Positions 14,603 through 31,430 of a DNA stretch of 48,427 nucleotides are shown piece after piece. The translations under genes were made by a program, and so were the position numbers. Every line of letters begins with the position of its first letter. Positions within the stretch are counted from its first letter, which is position 1. This DNA comes from Bacteroidota bacterium (GTDB taxonomy: Bacteria > Bacteroidota > Bacteroidia > CAIKAF01): positions 1 to 48,427 of the forward strand of contig VGMT01000016.1 of the NCBI GenBank assembly GCA_016866335.1. The letters run 5' to 3'. Below the pieces are notes generated by a model. That model was not told where the DNA came from. It did not search any database and was given only the letters and a program-made list of their open reading frames with translations.

Positions 14603-14743
14603 GCGGCAGGGATTGACGAGGCTACCCCGCAAGGGTGCCGAAGCCTGGCCCGCTAGGTGCGGAGGCGACTTCAGGAGCCCCCGCAAACCAGCTGGGCCAG
14701 GCTTTCGGTAACCGCGGAGTAGCCCGGAAAGCCCGGCTGCCGC
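14603..14743 (+). repeat. 141-bp palindromic intergenic repeat, copy A (plus)
   Basis: It begins GCGGCAGGGATTGACG and ends GCCCGGCTGCCGC. The two halves pair over nearly the whole length into one imperfect hairpin. It lies between two plus-strand genes. Confidence 0.9.
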
Positions 14744-29465: not shown

Positions 29466-29521
29466 GGGCGGGCCCTGGTGTCTGGCCTTGCACAGCCATT
29501 TTTAATGGAGATTGATTTTGG

Positions 29522-29662
29522 GCGGCAGCCGGGCTTTCCGCACTACTCCGCAGGTACCGAAAGGCTGGCCCAGCTGGTTTGCGGGGGCTCCTAAGGTCGC
29601 CTCCGCACCTAGCGGGCCAGGCTTCGGTACCTTTGCGGGGTAGTTGCGTCAATCCCTGCCGC
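29522..29662 (-). repeat. 141-bp palindromic intergenic repeat, copy E (minus)
   Basis: Same boundaries and almost the same sequence as copy C. It lacks the GGCTCATGGC outer flank and continues as GGGCGCAC. Confidence 0.92.
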
Positions 29663-29822
29663 GGGCGCACATAAACCTTTTGAGTCCCTATTGTTTTGAT
29701 TGCTCCAGCCCAACCGCCCATAGGTTTTCGATTTTCTCGCGCGCGTCATTTTAGTTACTGCCACAATTCTCTGGGCGGCTAGCCCCCCACCCCCTAAAAC
29801 AAAGTTAAACCGAAACAGAAAA

Positions 29823-29866
29823 TTATCCGTTTGGTAAACGTTTAATAAACGTTTAAAAACGGATAA
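29823..29866. promoter_or_regulatory. Nested palindromic operator-like site
   Basis: Outer arms TTATCCGTTT (29823-29832) and AAACGGATAA (29857-29866) are perfect inverted repeats. Between them are two copies of the perfect palindrome TAAACGTTTA (29835-29844 and 29846-29855), 11 bases apart, which places them on the same DNA face. The centre is about 90 bases upstream of the predicted transcription start of the M43 protease gene, consistent with an activator site or cooperative repressor site. The central CG within an AT-rich palindrome is typical of LacI-family operators; the factor itself is unknown. Confidence 0.65.
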
Positions 29867-29924
29867 ATCCCTGATTGTGCTTTCTGTAAAGGGTTCCAAA
29901 GGATTAATTATTGGGTATTATTAC

Positions 29925-29932
29925 TACCTTTA
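29925..29932 (+). promoter_or_regulatory. -7 promoter box TACCTTTA of the M43 protease gene
   Basis: TACCTTTA predicts a start of transcription near 29938 and a 5' leader of about 125 bases. No TTG stands at the usual -33 spacing, fitting a promoter that needs an activator. Confidence 0.45.
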
Positions 29933-30065
29933 ATCGTTTCCAAAGATGAATTTTATCTTTTTGGGTTGAATGACCGAATTCCTGAGGTAGAAAACCCATG
30001 GGTTCAAACGTGGGATTTCGTTTGGCTTTTTTTATGTCAAGTTGGTCAATTCTAACATTTTGAAA

Positions 30066-31430
30066 ATGAAAAAGAAACTCTTTATTGTATTTATTTTATC
30101 GCTTTTTGCCTCGAATACTCAAGCACAATTGGCAGGTTCATTCTGCGGAACTCACTCTTTTTCAGAGGTATGGGAAAATGAAATTCAAAGGTTGATTTTA
30201 GAAACCAAGAACCTTCAAAAAAACAAAAATCAAACAGAAAACAACTATGTTATTCCTGTTGTTTTTCATGTGATACATGGTGGAGAATCGGTGGGCACCT
30301 TTCCTAATATCTTAGAAGGTCAAATCCAATCTCAAATGACTATTTTGAATCAGGATTTTTCGGGGAATGCCTACAATGCATCGAATTACCCCCCAAATGC
30401 ATTCGTGAACTGGGCTGTAAATCAGAATATTGCTGGTTTAAACCTGGACCAAAACGGACGGATTAAAATAGCGGATTTTAATATTCAATTTTGTTTGGCA
30501 ACCAAAGATACGAGTGGTCAGTTATTGCCTGAGCCTGGTATACATCGGGTAAATTACCTGTCGTTGGGAATACCCAATCCCAGTACCTATACAACCCAAT
30601 CGACCATGAAAGCGTACCTTGATAATACACTTAAGCCCCAAACCATTTGGGACGTAAGAAAATACCTAAACGTTTGGATTACCGATAAAAACACCGCGCT
30701 AACCTATTCTGGGGTTTCTTCAGGCCCACCCTTCAGCGGTTTAATGGACCTACCCAACAATGCCACCGAATTTACAGATGGAATTTGGTGTTACACCAAA
30801 GTGGTTGGGTCCAACTCCTTATTTCCTTCCGGAAGCTATTTGTCGCCCATGATTGATGGGCGTATTTTAACCCACGAAGCCGGGCATTATGTTGGATTAA
30901 GGCACATTTGGGGCGATCAGGATTGCGGGAATGACTTTTGCAATGACACTCCACCAGCTGCGGGTCAAAACTCAGGAGCGCCAACTTACCCCCATGAAGC
31001 GGGATCTTGTGCCTCGCCCTCCAATAATCCCGATGGAGAAATGTTTATGAATTTCATGGATTATACTCGAGGTCCAAGCGTATATATGTTCACTACCGAC
31101 CAAAGAACCAGAGCCCAAACCGCTATGCTGAACAGTCCATTCCGAAATCAATTGGGAACCCATGGTTTGTGTTCTGAAACCACTGGTTTAATAAAGGAAA
31201 CCATAAAAAATACCCTTTCAGTGTACCCCAATCCTGCCAAGAATCATTTGAATTTGGATGTTTCTGAAACCGAACCAAAGGAAATTTTAATAATCGACCT
31301 TTTTGGCCAAGTTTTGATTGCCACAAAAAACACCCATGTTGTTGACATTTCGTGCTTGGCGCAGGGTATTTACTTTGTTTCCGTTTCAACGGGTCAACAA
31401 ACCTACGCTCAAACATTCATTAAGGAATGA
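30066..31430 (+). CDS. M43 (pappalysin-like) secreted zinc metalloprotease with T9SS sorting region
   Basis: A 454-residue secreted protease: signal peptide (1-21), propeptide region, and a metzincin-type catalytic domain with HEAGHYVGLRH at residues 270-280 (H270, H274, H280 as ligands, E271 as base). FMNFMDYT downstream is the Met-turn. C-rich loops (DCGNDFCNDTPP) are typical of cytophagalysin-like M43B enzymes. Residues about 375-454 are a T9SS type A sorting region (VYPNPAKNHL). It probably degrades extracellular protein. The ATG at 30066 opens the signal peptide; a TTG at 30042 in the same frame is unlikely. The upstream nested palindrome suggests specific regulation. Confidence 0.9.
   Translation: MKKKLFIVFILSLFASNTQAQLAGSFCGTHSFSEVWENEIQRLILETKNLQKNKNQTENNYVIPVVFHVIHGGESVGTFPNILEGQIQSQMTILNQDFSGNAYNASNYPPNAFVNWAVNQNIAGLNLDQNGRIKIADFNIQFCLATKDTSGQLLPEPGIHRVNYLSLGIPNPSTYTTQSTMKAYLDNTLKPQTIWDVRKYLNVWITDKNTALTYSGVSSGPPFSGLMDLPNNATEFTDGIWCYTKVVGSNSLFPSGSYLSPMIDGRILTHEAGHYVGLRHIWGDQDCGNDFCNDTPPAAGQNSGAPTYPHEAGSCASPSNNPDGEMFMNFMDYTRGPSVYMFTTDQRTRAQTAMLNSPFRNQLGTHGLCSETTGLIKETIKNTLSVYPNPAKNHLNLDVSETEPKEILIIDLFGQVLIATKNTHVVDISCLAQGIYFVSVSTGQQTYAQTFIKE

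Follow-up and report, generated by a model that had tools for sequence, protein, structure and literature searches.

The window, i.e., the whole stretch of 48,427 nucleotides analysed here (contig VGMT01000016.1 of the Bacteroidota genome GCA_016866335.1, below G000), contains in the intergenic region preceding a gene for an M43 peptidase a 44-bp site of the structure TTATCCGTTT-GG-TAAACGTTTA-A-TAAACGTTTA-A-AAACGGATAA. Two perfect TAAACGTTTA boxes (29835-29844 and 29846-29855) are flanked in it by the arms TTATCCGTTT and AAACGGATAA; its sequence and coordinates, 29823-29866, had been given correctly in the first-pass annotation. The combination of two perfect 10-bp palindromes lying 10-12 bp apart within perfect 10-bp arms has a single occurrence in the window and did not arise in 1500 windows simulated with a Markov-1 model, in agreement with the earlier statement that the order of the site is far beyond chance. 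The site had also been described as nearly symmetrical; the arms and boxes are indeed perfect, but the centre of the arms is offset by half a base from that of the inner pair, only 28 of the 44 bases match symmetrically if no gap is allowed, and the ungapped symmetry of the whole site is not unusual. The regularity that counts lies in CG-centred boxes recurring every 10/11 bp, with CG-to-CG steps of 11, 11, and 10 bp in the window array, and not in one 44-bp palindrome. The features of the locus are collected in Table 1.

Table 1. Features at and around the 44-bp site, in positions of the window.
Feature	Position	Strand	Basis or remark
GC-rich hairpin repeat of about 150 bp	29512..29670		independent repeat close to the operator, with 40 or more genomic copies
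G-rich start of predicted non-coding leader (AGGGGGTGGGGGGCTAGCC)	29770..29795	-	common to C26 and C36; other copies have a different G-rich leader
-7 promoter box TAACTTTG	29800..29807	-	22 bp from the proximal CG; 21-23 bp common to the ssbB, MGN, comEA, and comM promoters
Putative operator, tandem array of four CG-centred boxes	29823..29866		exact copy 5' of ssbB at C13; family conserved in the genus and the class
CGs of the array	29828-29829, 29839-29840, 29850-29851, 29860-29861		
Flank distal to the promoter (TTTCTGNAANCC...AAAGG type)	29867..29895		loosely conserved; visual comparison of 30 copies
TACCTTTA box, probable promoter box of the M43 protease	29926..29933	+	sequence; off the operator spacing
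Secreted M43 peptidase with T9SS sorting domain	30069..31430	+	Pfam; no relative beside other copies; probably not the operator target

About 10 copies of the site are present in G000. The exact 44-mer is found again at G000:C13:54583-54626, in front of ssbB, the second ssb paralog; near-identical 44-mers (1-3 differences) lie at C26, C36, and C6, variants with one (C30), two (C15 and C49), or three (C47) inner units were also found, as were partial copies at C39, C37, and C32, and the backwards control pattern gave 0 matches. The window site itself belongs to a 359-bp segment that is duplicated at C36 with 91% identity. G009, the Lake Erken Flavobacteriales MAG CAILUT01, which is the closest named relative, contains at least 15 matches. 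The first-pass annotation had made its proposal dependent on conservation in close relatives and on further occurrences in the genome, and both were found. The genome search it had suggested did yield further copies, but they are associated with ssbB and other genes and not with secreted enzymes in general.

The unit common to these copies is a tandem array of 2-6 CG-centred boxes (TANNCGNNTA) with a 10/11-bp period. The gap between boxes is 11 bp in 53 cases and 10 bp in 30 cases, the smallest form, that of the comEA promoter, still has two boxes, and the outer half-sites are CGGATAA or CGACTA. All parts of a copy follow one another in one direction: the loosely conserved flank, the array, 16-18 bp, and a Bacteroidota -7 box of the TAnnTTTG type. 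Measured with a script, the proximal CG and the -7 box are 23 bp apart in 18 of 31 promoters, 22 bp in five, and 21 bp in one; the other seven values are mis-picks, in which the script took a surplus CG or a preceding TTTG-like match, and by eye the spacing is about 23 bp there as well. In the window the minus-strand box TAACTTTG is the only one located at the conserved distance from the array. An earlier idea that the spaced copies represent an integron or recombination sites was dropped because the distance between the array and the promoter box is fixed.

The genes located directly downstream of arrays in G000 are ssbB (C13), a gene for a 149-aa protein designated MGN (C15), a gene for a protein with Amidase_2 and CUB domains (C6), and a gene for a ComEA-like helix-hairpin-helix (HHH) protein (C5), the last preceded by a minimal two-box array. 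Each of these four promoters has retained the array in six of six genomes belonging to the genus. When G000 is compared with G009, the ssbB operator is identical at 42 of 45 positions, as against 23 of 45 in the 45 nt upstream and 9 of 16 in the spacer; for MGN the corresponding values are 45 of 45, 26 of 45, and 5 of 16. To judge from this comparison, an operator conserved amid diverged flanks is the footprint of a selected site, and conservation under selection in orthologous promoters, a feature of a competence operator, is thus apparent between G000 and G009. In some other genera of the family a second ssb is accompanied by phased CG arrays with related half-sites (compared by eye, unscored). 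The MGN protein (L101:1501-1947 and its orthologs behind the conserved operator) is specific to the genus; it is predicted to fold into a four-helix bundle with a disordered tail, has no match in Pfam, NCBIfam, or PADLOC, and its four-helix model gave no significant match in the PDB.

The distribution of the arrays in the class Bacteroidia was surveyed with a sequence-only model built from 11 operators, which matched 90 of 395 genomes at E ≤ 0.02 per genome, about 8 being expected (the E-values are rough). Among 64 fetched sites outside the family the adjacent genes, as assigned with Pfam, are ssb in eight cases, comEC in four, comEA-like genes in three, and comM in two, while by our own unsimulated estimate about 0.2 would be expected by chance for these four gene classes among some 3000 genes. 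Xer-like recombinases, DUF2851 proteins, UvrD-like helicases, and GIY-YIG nucleases are encoded next to further sites of this set. Independent matches to the exact pattern in other lineages involve comM, ssb, recombinase, and DUF2851 genes; some other exact-pattern matches, in Chishuiella and in the MAG Jr-11may16, have no sensible gene context and are probably due to chance. Many sites, that of the window included, have no adjoining competence gene, and behind the arrays of the sites examined there was no dprA, comF, or recA, three genes on which transformation in Riemerella depends. A common cis element before several core DNA-uptake genes, as expected of a competence operator, is present in six genomes of the genus and in other families.

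Among Bacteroidota, the components that carry out natural transformation are known in one member, Riemerella; the open-access PMC papers searched yielded no description of a competence regulator or operator in the phylum. In R. anatipestifer, transposon insertions in the genes for ComEC, an HHH protein, YifB (ComM), and N-acetylmuramoyl-L-alanine amidase abolish or lower transformation (PMC8459023), and it is mainly because the set of array-associated genes overlaps the genes of this screen that the regulon is called here a competence regulon. The window site can be considered, with a probability of about 0.82, one of the operator copies through which a regulon for natural competence (DNA uptake) would be controlled in the class Bacteroidia, and the array family looks like a so far undescribed control site for the uptake of foreign DNA in Bacteroidota. 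The arrays, their phase, the fixed spacing to the -7 box, the conservation, and the position before genes of DNA uptake and processing are directly visible in the DNA; from these features we infer that a protein binds, that it does so cooperatively, that it activates, and that the genes are expressed during competence.

The mechanism that can be proposed is as follows. A DNA-binding protein would occupy 2-6 neighbouring CG-centred boxes in a cooperative manner, along the same face of the helix and with a one-turn spacing; the box nearest to the promoter, at 21-23 bp from the -7 box on its 5' side, would take the place of the -33 element, and the bound protein would probably recruit RNA polymerase as an activator. 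Activation appears clearly likelier than repression because the proximal box sits at the -33 position at a constant distance, which is an argument from position. The window copy would drive leftward, minus-strand transcription of one small multi-copy unit without a conserved ORF. The copies, the conservation, and the fixed promoter spacing bear out the first impression that the site looks like an operator. Two further suggestions made at that stage, an activator-type promoter devoid of a -33 element and cooperative binding, also seem likely, given the proximal box in the -33 place and the tandem boxes one turn apart. The signature of such a regulon would allow prediction of transformable Bacteroidota; the array points to new competence genes, i.e., those for DUF2851, for a Zn-ribbon protein divergent from ssb, and for Xer-like recombinases, and it could serve as a direct bait for isolating the regulator.

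Competence operators known elsewhere are the ComK boxes of Bacillus, the CRP-S/Sxy sites of Haemophilus and Vibrio, and the SigX cin-box of Streptococcus. As here, a common cis element before com genes and ssb defines the competence regulon in each of them, but their sequence and layout are different from the CG-centred boxes repeated every 10/11 bp and set 21-23 bp from the -7 box. The operators of MetJ and Arc are arrays bound by ribbon-helix-helix proteins, the MetJ boxes being CG-centred and the Arc sites spaced by about one turn. Two or more short tandem palindromic boxes with a constant short period are present in our arrays as well, in variable number and with presumed cooperativity; the resemblance is one of layout only, as the gene set is unrelated and the boxes here are 10 bp long with a 10/11-bp period. 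The arrays were not classed with the MetJ/Arc type because no ribbon-helix-helix protein is tied to them. LacI/GalR operators are single CG-centred dyads of 16-20 bp, with which the arrays have the CG-centred AAACGTTT core in common; instead of a single dyad, boxes follow one another at one-turn intervals with CGGATAA or CGACTA outer half-sites, and the LacI-type regulator put forward in the first-pass annotation would not fit this layout.

The site of the window belongs to a second class, that of small units present in multiple copies, whose operator and promoter are the same but are directed into a G-rich leader lacking any conserved ORF; the correctly spaced -7 box of the window copy faces such a non-coding unit and not the protease. 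Two types of leader are present in G000, that of the window being found in C26 and C36, and G005 and G007 have a further type combined with the same operator. A hairpin is predicted in the leader, but the covariation term is unfavourable, with a two-sided change at only one pair, and no claim of a structured RNA is made; a scan of the region with Rfam gave nothing above chance. The small units look like repeats that captured the operator; they may act by titrating the regulator, or may be expressed when the cells are competent. It is a tentative extension of the competence reading, and a rather doubtful one, that an undescribed competence regulator of Bacteroidia assembles along the tandem one-turn boxes and that small non-coding elements captured its operator and promoter, to be transcribed, and perhaps spread, exactly during DNA uptake while titrating the regulator.

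The multiplicity of the units, the flanks common to several copies, the tandem clusters at the ends of G009 contigs, the array followed by a RAYT-like gene in G005 and G007, and the membership of the window copy in a multi-copy unit are all consistent with a purely selfish dispersed repeat, a REP- or MITE-like palindrome found near genes by chance. This explanation is nevertheless improbable, as the array is retained in orthologous promoters across the genus while the flanks diverge, its distance to the -7 box is fixed, and the bias towards competence genes is strong across families. The high-copy dispersed intergenic palindrome typical of REP/RAYT systems was found in the small-unit class only, and the copies before the genes for ssbB, MGN, the amidase, and comEA belong to promoters, in which their position is conserved.

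Very improbable, too, is an SOS operator, with the arrays serving LexA-like repressors of Bacteroidetes to keep DNA-repair genes silent until DNA is damaged. Genes for ssb, UvrD-like helicases, and recombinases are related to DNA repair, and one array lies near uvrC, but at this locus (C49) the -7 box of the array points away from uvrC; no array was seen in front of recA, dinB, or umuDC, and the fixed placement over -33 suggests activation. The non-canonical LexA motifs characterised in Bacteroidetes are single dyads, CTAA-N5-TTAG or GGA-N5-TTC, bound by S24-family repressors (PMC8565304). They resemble the arrays in being palindromic, and the LexA regulon also comprises ssb; comEC is absent from PMC8565304, though, and the motifs differ from the CG-centred arrays in both sequence and layout. 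Neither dyad is present in the array sequence, and the LexA identity was rejected on account of this difference.

Least probable of all is a local operator of the M43 protease, the target assumed in the first-pass annotation, from which a bound factor would switch on the promoter at 29926: the array does lie inside the upstream region of the protease gene and the TACCTTTA box does exist, but it is about 66 bp away from the last CG of the array instead of 22-23 bp, the segment was copied as a block elsewhere, an identical site precedes ssbB, relatives of the site precede competence genes, and a tblastn search of all fetched loci revealed no M43 gene beside the other copies, only weak matches to unrelated loci. 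The window site is real, not a product of chance, and not specific to the M43 protease.

Some observations on the neighbourhood of the arrays can be added. DUF2851 genes lie directly behind the operator in two Bacteroidota groups (L230, L236, L243, and L100), a placement that suggests involvement of their products in the uptake or processing of DNA. L275:1510-1866 and L283:1418-1783, as well as L287, L250, L251, L274, and L277, encode a protein of about 120 aa that begins with a Zn-ribbon (CxxCG..GR.DKKFC...C) and belongs to no Pfam family; in most of these loci the gene is divergent from ssb with the operator in between, and it is also located near ssbB in G005 and G007. Its predicted structure (pLDDT 91) has no match in the PDB, and it is a candidate competence protein or regulator.

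In three contigs of G009, C1, C60, and C62 (L065, L066, and L068), operator units are arranged head to tail, 200-380 bp apart, at the contig ends, pointing to longer tandem arrays at which the assembly broke off; the genomes analysed are in part fragmented MAGs. At L160 (G007:C2:1-10000) the operator is present five times, at intervals of about 1.5-2 kb, beside repeated ORFs of 360-380 aa. A RAYT-like gene (REP-associated tyrosine transposase) has the operator upstream at L168:2162-2803 in G007 and at L178 in G005, and may thus be a mobile-element gene under competence control. The RAYT-like ORF of G007 escapes Pfam and has a weak match to NF047646, below the cut-off; PF01797, the Y1 transposase family, has no match in G000. 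It is also worth adding that the GC-rich hairpin repeat near the operator (MFE -103 kcal/mol, z -6.2, for the folded segment 29500-29690) recurs near 14603, 22542, 26393, 45344, and 45558 of the window, in both orientations and often near operator units.
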